Shown here piece by piece: positions 7,018-11,774 of a DNA stretch of 64,000 nucleotides. The stretch spans positions 372,001 through 436,000 of the forward strand of contig BLSF01000025.1 in NCBI GenBank assembly GCA_012862575.1, written 5' to 3'. The notes under the pieces are model-generated. The model made no database searches. It was not told the DNA's origin and worked only from the letters and a program-made list of their open reading frames with translations. How positions within the stretch are numbered: position 1 is the stretch's first letter; every line of letters begins with the position of its first letter. This DNA comes from Parietichytrium sp. I65-24A. Its lineage: Eukaryota > Sar > Bigyra > Thraustochytrida > Thraustochytriidae. The translations under genes were made by a program, and so were the position numbers.

Positions 7018-9330
7018 TCAAATCGAAAGAATGTTGCGAATTTTGGCCTGCTGCACAGAGGTGCTCGTTCGCGGCTTGAATGTGTAGTCTTCTGGCAAAC
7101 TTCCGTCGTATGTTCGGTACTTTGATTTTGTTCGTTCAGAGAGCTTGAATGGCTGTGGAATGGTGTATGGCTCAGGGTGGATATTGGTAGTGTCTTCCAG
7201 AAATGCTCTTGCTTCGCGTTCTCGCTGTTCTTCGCCAAGACGCTTGGCCAACTCCTTTCGCTCCAAAAACTTCCCGAGACCACGGACTACAACCGGTCCG
7301 TCTGCTTTGGGGATGTTTTCACGGTCGTTTACCTGCGGAGTAAAAGTGCATTCCAAAAGTGTTTCGTATTCCATCTCTCGCTTCTGCTGCAGCAGCTTTT
7401 GCTCCCGAAGACGGCGCTGCTTCTCAAGGGCCTTGATGGTCACATCTGTTGGAGCGCGTGTCGATCGAATCACTTCGGACGCCTGTGCATCTGGCCGCTT
7501 TAGGATTTTTGGACGGAAAGTACAGTCCTTCAGATTTTCATCTTCCATCTGGCTCTTTGCGACCTTCTTAAAGTGTTTGCCGCGCTCATTTCGATACAAG
7601 TCGTCGAAGAGATCTTGACCTGCTTTGTGTGATTCGCGCACTATCTCTGCAGACACCGGATTGATTACTGGCTTAAAATTGAACTGCGAATAAAAGTGCT
7701 CTCGAATCGCATTTTGCAGCTTGTCCTTTCGCATCTGATCTCGTTTGGAGAGCCTTACATAGCGCTCGTCGGCTGTCTCCACGAGACGCTCTGGCTTACT
7801 TTGCATCAATACCCGGTCTGGATCGCTCAGCTTTTTGACTGCCGGCTTGAATGTAGCGGCGCCACCCAGGTCGTGCACCTCGGCCCTTGTCCGCTCCTCC
7901 CGAACTTTTCTCTCGCGTTCGAGAATCTCTTGACGCTTGACAAAATCAACACCTTCGATATTGAATTTTGGGTGCATTTTCAGTATTTTTTCGGAATTGG
8001 CGGAGACCTTGGGTTTAAATCTGTACTCTTGCTCGCTTTGCTCCGCCCATGCCAATTGCCGAGACTTTTTCCGTTCTGCCAGACTGTTGCTCGTACTCAT
8101 CAGACGAGTCACTACATCGCCATGCGGGACTTGGCCTTTTCGTAATGCAGATTCTTGTGCAAGCCGCTGAGACCGCTCTGAAATGGTCGGTTTGAAGGTC
8201 AAGTCCTTGTTTCCGACTTCTATCTCGAGTTTCTTTCGCGCCAGTTTCTCCTGTTTCTCTCGCTGTATCCGGGCGGCTCTTGACTCGATCGGCTCGTGGT
8301 TTATCTGTTTGGCAATCTCTTCCGAGACAAGGTTCACCTTAGGGCGGAATGGTTTCGACTGAAGCTCAGCTTCCTCTAATTCTCGTTTGGCGCGCTCCCG
8401 TGCTTCCCAACGCTGGTTGGCATCTTGGTACAATCGGCGCTCCACGGGGACGTGGTTTCTGTAGGCCTCCCGGATTCTCTGCTGCCAAGCCGCCTTTCCT
8501 TCGTTTGTATCATCGCCGTCTGCGAACGCTGTCATACCGGTCGAAATATCTGGCTTGAACGTACACGACTGACGCAATTCGTCCTCCTCTTTAGACCGTT
8601 TCCGGAGCTCCTGCTTATTGTAATAATCACTTCTTGATTTCGCAAGGCGCTCAAGCCGTTCTTCCGGGTCCTCCTTCTTCAGAGCTTGATAAGTTTTAAT
8701 TTTAGGCCGGAATGTGCAGTCTTTTGAGCGCTCCTTCTCCACTTGCAGCTTGACCTGATCGATACTCTTTCTGTGGAACGGCTTTGATGAAACCCCTGCA
8801 GCGCCCAGAGGCTGACTTTTAAAAGAAGCTATTCTCTCCGCCAGACCTGGCGCACTCGCTTGTGCAGCGGCTGATCCTCTCATGCCTCCAGCACTAGCGC
8901 TTTTCGGCCTCCGCGTTTGGGCTCCACGCTCACCCTTGAGCTGTTTAGCGCCAGTCTCTGGCGAGTCCAGCATCGTTTCTGCGAAGATGCCCTCGTACAT
9001 TTCCGCAGCGAAAGCCGCGTTTCGCCCACTCGAGCCTTCGTCTGCGCCGCAGGATTCCGACTCCAGCTCTCTCTGCCGCCGGCGCTCGATGGCTCTCAGT
9101 TCTAGCTCCTCGGCCAAACGGTCTGCTTCCTCGGACGCTCTCAGAGTGCTCTCGCGCTCTTCCAGCAGCCTTTGGATGAGACCCTCCCTGGCCGTGGGGT
9201 CGCGGTACCTGTTCGTCTCCGTAACCACACCGTCGTCAGCCGCCAGCGCCTCCAAATCGCGGGCCATCAGCTCCTCCGCGCGCCGGATGGCCTCTTCCAC
9301 GTCGTCCACGTCGCCCGCATAGCTTTCCAT
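7018..9330 (-). CDS. Large charged protein with about ten CTFxPxI-type repeats
   Basis: This 770-residue protein starts at the first in-frame ATG (9330, MESYAGDVDD). The open frame runs on upstream only from a GTG at 9696 and through a hexanucleotide repeat, so that extension is treated as leader. The N-terminal third is acidic and helical with likely coiled coil (EEADRLAEELELRAIERRR). From about residue 200 a motif of the form [C/A/Y]-T/R/N-F-K/R-P-x-[I/V] recurs roughly every 45-65 residues: CTFRPKI, CTFKPDI, KPFRPKV, LTFKPTI, YRFKPKV, ATFKPAV, FNFKPVI, CTFRPKI, CTFTPQV and YTFKPRT. The motifs are separated by Arg/Lys/Glu-rich helices. Such repeats occur in large uncharacterised protist proteins; I know of no assigned function. 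No catalytic domain or membrane segment is seen. Confidence 0.75.
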   Translation of the reverse strand: MESYAGDVDDVEEAIRRAEELMARDLEALAADDGVVTETNRYRDPTAREGLIQRLLEERESTLRASEEADRLAEELELRAIERRRQRELESESCGADEGSSGRNAAFAAEMYEGIFAETMLDSPETGAKQLKGERGAQTRRPKSASAGGMRGSAAAQASAPGLAERIASFKSQPLGAAGVSSKPFHRKSIDQVKLQVEKERSKDCTFRPKIKTYQALKKEDPEERLERLAKSRSDYYNKQELRKRSKEEDELRQSCTFKPDISTGMTAFADGDDTNEGKAAWQQRIREAYRNHVPVERRLYQDANQRWEARERAKRELEEAELQSKPFRPKVNLVSEEIAKQINHEPIESRAARIQREKQEKLARKKLEIEVGNKDLTFKPTISERSQRLAQESALRKGQVPHGDVVTRLMSTSNSLAERKKSRQLAWAEQSEQEYRFKPKVSANSEKILKMHPKFNIEGVDFVKRQEILERERKVREERTRAEVHDLGGAATFKPAVKKLSDPDRVLMQSKPERLVETADERYVRLSKRDQMRKDKLQNAIREHFYSQFNFKPVINPVSAEIVRESHKAGQDLFDDLYRNERGKHFKKVAKSQMEDENLKDCTFRPKILKRPDAQASEVIRSTRAPTDVTIKALEKQRRLREQKLLQQKREMEYETLLECTFTPQVNDRENIPKADGPVVVRGLGKFLERKELAKRLGEEQREREARAFLEDTTNIHPEPYTIPQPFKLSERTKSKYRTYDGSLPEDYTFKPRTSTSVQQAKIRNILSI

Positions 9331-10112
9331 CAGGCGGACAGCGGAGTAAGCGAGGTTGCGGGGGGGCTGCGGCGAGACGACGCCGTGCGGAGCGTTGGCC
9401 TTATGCGAGAACTTGAAGCAACTGCGACTGCGACTGCGACTGCGACTGCGACTGCGACTGCGACTGCGACTGCGACTGCGACTGCGACTGCGACTGCGAC
9501 TGCGCGTATGGTGTTTGCAGACAGGCTTTCGCTGCTTCTCACGGTCTGTCAAACGGACCAAACAAGACGTGCTGACTTGCGCGACGGGTGTTCCTTCGAC
9601 CAGCGTGTTTTTTCTACGGTACGCCGGTACAGTTCGGTACAGACTGAGTGCAGGGCGGGAACTGACGCACCTGGTCAAACGTGCCGCTCGCCTCACGTGG
9701 AAAGACTTGGAATGACTTTTGTTTTGCCCGCCTTCCTCTTTCCTACACCTGCGCCAGTTGAGTTGACTGTGTCAAAAACTCGGACGGTTGGGTGGAACCC
9801 GTACTCGAGGACTAGTACTAGTCCACCGGGGAGAGAAGAGAAGGAGAGAAGGCACGATGTAACGAGGAATGGGCCCTTTTGGCGCCGAACATCTTTTTGA
9901 CTTTGAAAGAAAACAAAATGTAAGTCGTGTGATGGTCCTCTGAGGATGCGATGATATGAGGGTTCAGCAAATTTCATTTATTGACGGTGAGATATCGGTT
10001 CGAATGTTCCAGGATTGGGCTCTTTTCAATGAGGAGACGGGAAATAAGAACAAGGGACATAGAGAAACAAATTGCTGTTGCCTGCTGCTTTGCTTTGTGT
10101 GGTACTCAATGA
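9331..10112. other. Intergenic leader region between two minus-strand genes
   Basis: This spans the presumed 5' leader of the CTFxP protein and the 3' flank of the GH5 gene. It contains the hexanucleotide array at 9421-9504, a cluster of GGTAC motifs near 9617-9646, and ACTAGTACTAGT at about 9811-9823. No additional gene is supported. Confidence 0.55.
9421..9504. repeat. (ACTGCG)14 perfect hexanucleotide array
   Basis: Fourteen perfect head-to-tail copies span 84 bp, about 90-175 bp upstream of the ATG of the CTFxP gene. Read on the minus strand in that gene's frame it would encode alternating Arg-Ser, but no ATG lies upstream in frame. It is therefore more likely in the 5' leader or promoter than in the protein. 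Confidence 0.95.
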
Positions 10113-11774
10113 TTACGAGAGACCTTGTACCTGCTGCATGTCGGCAACCAAGTCCGCGTGTTTGATACTGGTGTAGTCCGAGCCGAGCAAGCCATATCCC
10201 TCAACTGCCCAGGTCTGGGTATCGTTCATCCATCGCTCGCCATCTAGTGCCCAGTACGCCCAACTCACTTCCGAATCCGCGAAAAACTCCATCAAGTTTG
10301 CCCACCAATCATTTCCATCGCGATAGTTGGTGCCAAACTCTCCCACCCATATCGGTGCGACCGTGGAATCGACTCGCCAATGAGCGTTAAAGTCCTTGTA
10401 TAACTGATCGTACGTGTTCGAGGTCAACGAAAGCCAAAGCATTCCGGCTGAGGTGAAAATCAATGTCGCACCTGTGAAGACGGCGTTCAATTGTAGGCAA
10501 CCTGGGAGACAGGCACCGTCGCGACGCAGATACTTCTCCTTCTGGTCCTCCAGGTAGCAAGGAATGGAAGCAGGCTCAACATGGCCAAGCTCACTCTTGC
10601 ATTTGACGAATAGAATAGCGCACGCACAGGACACAAAAGATATCGAACCAAGAACAATACATATTAGAGACCCGCCAGCCATGGCCATACAGCCCGACTG
10701 TTTCATAGCTTCTCTCCAGATTAGTCCAGCAACGATCAACAAGAGTGAGTAAAACATACCCCATGATGCTGCTGTCAAATACAGTGCTCGATGTGGCACA
10801 AGATAAAGAGAGTCTCTAAGCGACTTCGTGGAGAACATGGCTCCCGTGCAAAGGCATCCAAGAGCAAAGAGGACGAAGCCTAGAGTCATCCAGATTTGAT
10901 AAGAAAACGTGCGCTCTTCGAGGAGCGCCCACCACACACTGTAACCGTACGTGTGCGATGTCCACACCAGTTTGTTTGTTACAGGAAGATTCGGAGGGTC
11001 GGCTTGCTGCCTTCTCAAGTCGAACCCAAAGCAAAGCCCGCTCACGATAATGAGTATCTCGGGGTTTGCTTCTAAAACTCGCGAGCCTGCGAGCTCCGAG
11101 GCGATTTTCCAGTCGGAATCCTTGTCTTCTGAAGAGCCCCACGTCACGATCTTTTCACCGACATCGTGTATCTCGTTCCGCAGATCAAAAGCAGCGACAT
11201 GGGATACGTTGGCGTAGCGGCTTGTCAAGAGCGCAAGAGCTACGGCCCACTGGTCTGTAGAATAAGCGCTGGTACTCCAAGAACCTTCCTCCGAGTTGAC
11301 GTCACAACACCATCCCGCTTTTGAGTTGTGATTGTTGAGCACAGTCACAAGGTTTGACTTCGTGAATTCCTCAATCACCTTGTCCATTATTTGCAAACCA
11401 CTCAGTCCTTTTCCCACGAGAGTGGGGTCAGCCTTGATAAATTGATCTTTGACGATAGGGTCGGTGAGGACCAGCTCCAACGAGAACGGTAACCGAACGC
11501 AGTTGAAGCCCATTTCGACAATCGAACGGGTTATGTTCGCAAGAGGCACTTTGTGAAGTCCACTCACGACGAACTGCTCCATGTGCGCGCCATACCAGTT
11601 GACACAAGCAAGGCGAACCTTCTTCCCGCTGCTGTCCACAATGTCGCTTCCAACAGCACGAAGTGGAAGTCTACTCTCGTCCAGCAACTCACCCCCAGAA
11701 GCTGCGGACTGGAGCATCTGCAGACTTAGTGCCGCAGTCGCAGCGCAAAGGAGACGTGTGAATCGCCGCCCCAT
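10113..11774 (-). CDS. Glycoside hydrolase family 5 enzyme with four transmembrane helices inserted in the catalytic domain
   Basis: This is 553 residues from the ATG at 11774; the frame upstream begins only at a TTG. A signal peptide fits residues 1-27 (MGRRFTRLLCAATAALSLQM). The GH5/cellulase signatures in order are NWYG (59-62), CVRLPFS (92-98), LNNHN (146-150), DLRNEIHD with acid/base Glu201, SHTYGYS (273-279), and IWVGEFGT with nucleophile Glu479. Between HTYGYS and WVGEFG, normally a short stretch, lie about 170 extra residues. These include four hydrophobic helices at about 292-312, 328-352, 362-390 and 426-450. An even number of helices would put both halves of the barrel on the same, probably extracytoplasmic, side. 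It is expected to hydrolyse or transfer beta-linked glucans or mannans at the cell surface or in the endomembrane lumen; substrate unknown. Both catalytic glutamates are present. Confidence 0.88.
   Translation of the reverse strand: MGRRFTRLLCAATAALSLQMLQSAASGGELLDESRLPLRAVGSDIVDSSGKKVRLACVNWYGAHMEQFVVSGLHKVPLANITRSIVEMGFNCVRLPFSLELVLTDPIVKDQFIKADPTLVGKGLSGLQIMDKVIEEFTKSNLVTVLNNHNSKAGWCCDVNSEEGSWSTSAYSTDQWAVALALLTSRYANVSHVAAFDLRNEIHDVGEKIVTWGSSEDKDSDWKIASELAGSRVLEANPEILIIVSGLCFGFDLRRQQADPPNLPVTNKLVWTSHTYGYSVWWALLEERTFSYQIWMTLGFVLFALGCLCTGAMFSTKSLRDSLYLVPHRALYLTAASWGMFYSLLLIVAGLIWREAMKQSGCMAMAGGSLICIVLGSISFVSCACAILFVKCKSELGHVEPASIPCYLEDQKEKYLRRDGACLPGCLQLNAVFTGATLIFTSAGMLWLSLTSNTYDQLYKDFNAHWRVDSTVAPIWVGEFGTNYRDGNDWWANLMEFFADSEVSWAYWALDGERWMNDTQTWAVEGYGLLGSDYTSIKHADLVADMQQVQGLS

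Follow-up and report, generated by a model that had tools for sequence, protein, structure and literature searches.

Can a glycosidase carry a membrane domain inside its own catalytic barrel? The question is raised by a gene on the reverse strand of a 64,000-nucleotide stretch of Parietichytrium sp. I65-24A DNA (the window), which a first-pass annotation had read as a member of glycoside hydrolase family 5 (GH5) interrupted by hydrophobic helices. Our analysis confirmed the insert, structure prediction supports closure of the barrel around it, and the biological role first proposed is unsupported. With a probability of roughly 0.7, we read the gene product as a GH5 beta-glycanase or beta-glycosidase that is integral to the membrane and whose chain is predicted to cross the membrane four times within the barrel; topology, cleft orientation, activity, and substrate are all parts of that prediction.

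A GH5 gene with an interrupted barrel

The reverse-strand frame 11774-10113 is open over 553 codons and starts at the first ATG that is in frame past the upstream stop. The features of the gene, in window positions, are as follows.

10113..11774 (-): whole gene, 553 codons plus stop, intron not required
11697..11774 (-): signal-peptide-like N terminus, residues 1-26, judged from sequence; octanol-scale segment 5-23, 1.9 kcal/mol
10938..11663 (-): GH5 first part, residues 38-279, with strands 1-6 and R94, H149, N200, E201, H274, and Y276
11172..11174 (-): codon of the acid/base E201, from the motif
10410..10937 (-): inserted segment, residues 280-455, from the gap comparison and alignments; borders uncertain by about 10 residues
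10851..10907 (-): predicted membrane helix 1, core 290-308, from hydrophobicity and model
10716..10772 (-): predicted membrane helix 2, core 335-353, from hydrophobicity and model
10608..10664 (-): predicted membrane helix 3, core 371-389, from hydrophobicity and model
10425..10481 (-): predicted membrane helix 4, core 432-450, from hydrophobicity; no single continuous helix in either model
10116..10409 (-): GH5 second part, residues 456-553, with helix 6, strands 7 and 8, E479, and W508, from model and alignment and more weakly from PDB sequences
10338..10340 (-): codon of the nucleophile E479, from the motif

The Pfam Cellulase family (PF00150) matched the protein at E 4.5e-25 (89.1 bits vs a cut-off of 23.5) in two stretches, the better of which covers residues 47-280. 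When PDB sequences were searched, CelE2 (8fc0, 2.6e-33) and endocellulase E1 (1ece, 1.4e-29) matched over residues 38-282; past the insert, the stretches 462-493, 463-509, and 464-509 gave i-Evalues of 11, 3.9, and 5.3, each non-significant alone, and NCBIfam returned nothing for the protein up to E 1. We applied what we take to be the eight-residue GH5 active-site set (R, H, N, E, H, Y, E, W). Its members R94, H149, N200, E201, H274, Y276, E479, and W508 are each identical in 15/15 relatives of one alignment (A4), and in a second alignment of 42 relatives (A3) W508 is almost invariant and the other seven are fully so. The protein therefore carries all eight GH5 active-site residues, from which glycosidase activity is predicted. 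The motif columns bear out the positions first given for the acid/base Glu201 and the nucleophile Glu479, and the signal peptide of the first-pass annotation agrees with the signal-peptide-like N terminus and its segment 5-23. Of the three N-glycosylation sequons, N80 and N189 fall in the GH5 part before the insert and N517 in the part after it, with none in the insert itself.

To size the insert, we read 74 prokaryotic loci, 68 from one search and six chosen out of 58 plasmid records, and counted the residues from H274 to the glycine preceding E479. This gap is 204 residues in the protein and 43-59 in 68 of the 69 relatives in which it was measurable (L023 and L080-L083 gave no value), in line with the earlier expectation that HxYG and the nucleophile strand stand a few tens of residues apart. 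The one other reading, 112 in L075, is false, the motif search having taken a histidine adjacent to the acid/base glutamate. For A3, L075 and L080-L083 were removed by hand and L023 was dropped; thinning the remaining 62 at 90% identity left 42. The two alignments, A3 and A4, disagree on where the gap falls around the insert, which leaves the insert borders blurred.

On the Kyte-Doolittle scale the insert peaks at 1.98, 1.75, 2.57, and 1.56, whereas 19-residue windows in the gaps of the 69 relatives never exceed 0.88. With the octanol-scale values as we assumed them, the 19-mers 290-308, 335-353, 371-389, and 432-450 score 10.9, 10.3, 7.9, and 7.8 kcal/mol, the fourth being the weakest on both scales; one extra segment above 2 kcal/mol (3.3, residues 267-285) overlaps strand 6. 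Among the A3 relatives, octanol segments above 2 kcal/mol number zero in 34/42, one in 7/42, and two in 1/42. Upon shuffling the insert, the frame stayed open in 10/20,000 cases and four or more hydrophobic segments arose in 48/20,000. The first-pass claim of about 170 extra residues with four hydrophobic helices thus stands for its four segments (7.8-10.9 kcal/mol), and its length comes down to a net insert of about 145-160 residues relative to the relatives. The insert gave nothing near the cut-off in Pfam, where DUF5316 was best at E 0.18 (0.059 with the whole protein), and no match to PDB sequences up to E 10.

The insert as probable coding sequence

We scored the insert with a codon table built from 16 further long frames in the window, themselves unverified as genes. 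The in-frame reading scored +0.082 bits per codon; scores were negative in the remaining two sense frames and in the antisense frame in register. Synonymous bias was 0.036 in the insert vs 0.033 and 0.011 in the flanks. For scale, drawing 2,000 random 528-nt frames from the window, without setting coding ones aside, gave 142 open ones.

The genome harboring this gene (42.5 Mb, 172 contigs searched) has spliceosomal introns, and in three of its Cpn60/TCP-1 genes a single open frame contains two matching pieces; an uninterrupted frame is therefore not enough to decide the intron question. We read seven genomic 5′ splice sites by eye, one in a gene that we take to be GH5_12-like (L008) and six in Cpn60/TCP-1 genes; six are GTAAGTT and the seventh is GTACGTT, with scores of 7.4-9.5. 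No GTAAGTT-like site was found at the insert borders, where GT dinucleotides score at most 3.5. The border GT with that score, at codon 275, has no frame-preserving AG within codons 436-474; five other border candidates score -2.9 or below, and the best GT in the gene (5.8, codon 339) falls within the insert. One frame-preserving GT...AG pair (534 nt, score -2.9) would fuse the GH5 parts, leaving a 26-residue gap.

The Cpn60/TCP-1 genes (L086, L087, L088, L090, L092, and L094) provide an observation of their own. The introns read in them start very uniformly with GTAAGTT, and some of the genes have introns that are in frame and stop-free; such introns can mislead single-exon gene calls.

Predicted closure of the barrel

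We predicted the structure of the protein with AlphaFold2. Using 43 sequences, the first model had a mean predicted local distance difference test score (pLDDT) of 70.8 and a predicted template modeling score (pTM) of 0.71, with strands at 56-59, 92-98, 143-150, 193-197, 241-245, 269-275, 475-480, and 504-507. When this model was compared with the PDB by Foldseek, the top match was 8fc0 chain F (E 2.1e-23), and chain G gave a target-normalized TM-score of 0.83 with a root-mean-square deviation (rmsd) of 3.8 over 525 columns. The structure prediction of residues 28-553 that the first-pass annotation had proposed was run with 16 sequences (mean 61.9, pTM 0.63); it again yielded eight strands and matched 8fc0 at target-normalized TM-scores of 0.72-0.76. 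Foldseek alignments to the GH5 crystal structures 8fc0 and 1ece span about the whole chain. Prediction therefore supports the assembly of both barrel parts into an eight-strand (beta/alpha)8 barrel despite the insert, and the earlier suggestion that the two parts can close is upheld by both models, in which strands 7 and 8 form past the insert.

Both the model and the alignment place the insert after strand 6 and before helix 6 and strand 7. In a TIM barrel, the loops that follow the strands (beta-to-alpha) form the catalytic face. Since the insert follows strand 6, TIM-barrel topology puts it on that face, and the membrane domain would lie on the active-site side, the least expected feature of the protein and one absent from the first-pass annotation. 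The earlier argument that an even number of helices returns the chain to the same side fits with the even crossing count and with sequons in the GH5 parts either side of the insert. This sequon distribution is as expected if both GH5 parts are lumenal, and the loop charges lend weak support.

Possible origin of the insert

The insert is bordered by a 13-nt near-direct repeat, as follows.

10946..10958 (-): repeat copy 1, left insert border, 12/13 identical to copy 2
10409..10421 (-): repeat copy 2, right insert border, 537 nt (179 codons) from the first copy

The repeat has a palindromic CGTACG core, and its 9-nt core occurs just twice in the window. An identity of 12/13 was reached in 4 of 1,000 shuffled flank pairs and in 6 random pairs from the window, out of up to 1,000 drawn with those under 200 nt apart skipped; an exact shared 9-mer was reached in 28 and 50, respectively. 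This is suggestive only, and the repeat may be a target-site duplication or chance. DNA and protein searches of the genome, which scored few candidates, found no donor or second copy of the insert.

Other GH5 genes and genomic context

When the genome was searched with the Cellulase profile, we obtained nine matches, and of the insert-bearing gene only the first part was shown. No insert like this one was seen in the whole genes L001-L005 or in the partial L007 and L008. Four of the five genes that we presume to be GH5_2-like (L002-L005 among L001-L005) have one membrane segment past the GH5 domain, and surface-anchored GH5s therefore look common in this genome. L002 and L003 (G000:C24, matches about 3 kb apart) are a very similar tandem pair with a cysteine-rich N-terminal region and a C-terminal membrane segment, and L001 (G000:C4:377461-381231) has a threonine/proline-rich linker with repeated APTTK and a CBM1 (Pfam CBM_1, E 2e-10). 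L004 (G000:C1:935343-939092) is without the acid/base glutamate and L005 (G000:C75:126754-130278) without the nucleophile glutamate, and each has one membrane segment after the GH5 domain. Judged from their residues, these two are candidate membrane-anchored pseudo-glycosidases; with one catalytic glutamate lost in each, this organism seems to have anchored GH5s that are non-catalytic.

Upstream of the GH5 gene and on the same strand lies a coatomer beta gene (Pfam Adaptin_N, Coatamer_beta_C, and Coatomer_b_Cpla). Elsewhere in the window, the frame 7021-9696 (-) encodes 892 charged residues with an Arg-Ser repeat run near the start and recurring phenylalanine/lysine/proline motifs, and it matched no Pfam family at E 1e-4. 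Genome searches gave no match to the chlorophyll-binding (LHC) family or the phycobilisome linker, leaving the algal label of the first-pass annotation unsupported. FabA and PS-DH, families of the thraustochytrid-type polyunsaturated fatty acid synthase, were likewise unmatched in the genome.

Proposed mechanism and alternative explanations

In the membrane-integral enzyme that we propose, the signal peptide would direct the first part of the barrel to the secretory lumen. Past strand 6 the chain would enter the membrane, cross it four times, and re-emerge on the side from which it entered; there, helix 6, strands 7-8, and the nucleophile would finish an ordinary GH5 barrel of eight strands that has both catalytic glutamates. 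The predicted linkers are short: about 15 residues separate strand 6 from membrane helix 1, and about 5 separate membrane helix 4 from barrel helix 6. Given these short linkers and the position of beta-to-alpha loops on the catalytic face, the cleft would be close to the bilayer and facing it. A cleft so placed would in turn act on membrane-held glycans rather than as a freely secreted cellulase, and candidate substrates would be glycolipids, tethered or newly secreted beta-glucans, or chains captured at the cell or food-vacuole surface. The beta6-alpha6 loop normally lines the substrate cleft. More tentatively, the polytopic membrane domain may serve as an active-site roof, a possibility in which a four-helix bundle replaces this loop and substrate arrives from the membrane plane or as chains delivered across or along it.

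Several observations weigh against this reading. In the first model, the insert is mainly helical at poor confidence (ten-residue blocks of 34-73), and confidence is also low for helix 6, at about 51, and from residue 512 onward, at 44-65; the second run was less confident than the first, and in neither model does the fourth hydrophobic segment form a single continuous helix. Many Foldseek matches have an rmsd of 6-11 or more, so the placement of the parts in the models is inexact. Loop charges of +2 (loop 1), +1 (loop 2), and net 0 (loop 3) follow the positive-inside rule weakly, and the codon score of the insert (0.082) is below those of its flanks (0.171 and 0.179). A genome search with the whole protein scored one candidate and returned the protein itself alone, the insert is absent from all 69 measured prokaryotic relatives, and searches of viral contigs returned no relative of any kind. 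Going by these searches, a GH5 with this insert has been seen in one genome so far.

The alternatives differ chiefly in what they make of the insert. Were it an in-frame, stop-free intron, the mature enzyme would be an ordinary soluble GH5. Introns of this kind occur in the genome, as in the three Cpn60/TCP-1 genes, and the 534-nt GT...AG pair would join the GH5 parts in frame; Phytophthora GH5 endoglucanase transcripts are also said, in the title of a paper cited in PMC3526467, to undergo alternate intron processing, which we counted in favor. Against these stand border GTs scoring 3.5 at most vs 7.4-9.5 for the reference sites, observed intron lengths of about 60-220 nt, and the in-frame coding bias and four membrane-type segments of the insert. 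Since the insert reads as coding and its borders are without the genome's splice signal, we consider a retained intron very unlikely. The gene could instead be an assembly chimera or have been disabled by a very recent insertion, as the 12/13 direct repeat at the borders and the missing second copy might suggest. Yet the frame is open across both junctions, the insert and both flanks have positive codon scores in one and the same frame, no misjoin donor was found, and the repeat is only moderately unusual in shuffles and random window pairs; we regard this as highly improbable.

Two further explanations accept the membrane domain and assign it another role. The protein may be a membrane-embedded pseudo-enzyme with a binding or scaffolding function, its cleft blocked by the membrane domain. 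An insert on the active-site side with short linkers would suit such a role, as would the loss of the acid/base glutamate in L004 and of the nucleophile in L005 in the same genome, but this protein, unlike those two, keeps all eight active-site residues, which makes the idea unlikely. We are more doubtful still of a wall-synthesis partner (KORRIGAN-like, to use the name we presume fits the analogue) that trims glucan emerging from a synthase. Searched exon by exon, a procedure that can miss divergent genes, the genome gave no match to cellulose synthase PF03552, a family matched in 3/14 control genomes, and none to callose synthase PF02364, which matched in 0/14 controls. The PF03552 result counts against this explanation and leaves the wall or extracellular polysaccharide synthesis role of the first-pass annotation unsupported. 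With neither synthase matched, a role of the proposed membrane-integral enzyme at the feeding surface or in the digestive vacuole seems at least as plausible as one in wall synthesis.

With a polytopic domain within the barrel, the active site would be held in a set orientation to the membrane, here on the membrane side. If the proposal is true, the protein offers a test case for TIM-barrel folding in which four membrane crossings precede the synthesis of the last quarter, as well as for glycan processing at the membrane surface. Such proteins are easily missed or shortened, in that Pfam splits the match, the best part ending at residue 280, and the genome profile search showed the first part only.

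Comparison with known GH5 systems

By sequence and fold, the closest solved relatives are E1 of Acidothermus (1ece) and CelE2 (8fc0), which we take to be of the GH5_1 type, and the same catalytic residues are found in E1-like rows. The seven E1-like rows of A4 have no membrane insert and a gap of 43-44, and they are without NN148, C156-C157, R199, and I/V202, all of which are present in the protein. An actinobacterial NNH/CC group (A4 rows L016, L017, L019, L020, L034, L047, L053, and L057; 30.5-36.1% identity) shares with it NN147-148, C156-C157, and I/V202 in 8/8 rows, G512 in 7/8, and R199 and Y278 in 6/8 each. This group, too, has no insert, and its gap of 56-59 is without a hydrophobic segment. 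The subfamily signals are therefore split, the best PDB matches being E1-type and the motif columns siding with the actinobacterial group. A resemblance to GH5_11 is also presumed, in the first-strand motifs and the CC stretch, and that subfamily is not known to us to have a membrane insertion. GH5_11 is described from plants and fungi, its activity being listed as not determined (Table 1 of PMC3526467).

Among the matches listed in our literature search, which lay mostly outside the subscription literature, no title or abstract opening described a GH5 with membrane helices inside the barrel. In the available portions of the published accounts, anchored glycosidases have a single or chain-end segment that leaves the barrel free (PMC3526467, PMC4176579). 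As far as those portions go, this GH5 variant appears to be new, the known precedents, namely the GH5_14 fascin-like insert and the membrane segments of Phytophthora parasitica, being of other kinds. In GH5_14 plant enzymes, a fascin-like module is inserted after strand 1 (PMC3526467), a precedent for a module placed into a GH5 barrel after a strand, although the module and the loop are different and no membrane helices are mentioned there. Some fungal GH5_9 enzymes have single membrane segments (PMC3526467), and P. parasitica GH5s also have membrane segments, that of GH5_20 being N-terminal (PMC4176579). Taken together, the anchored GH5_9 and GH5_20 enzymes and L002-L005 have one segment each, outside the barrel where its position is stated, whereas the protein described here is predicted to have four, interrupting the barrel on its catalytic side.
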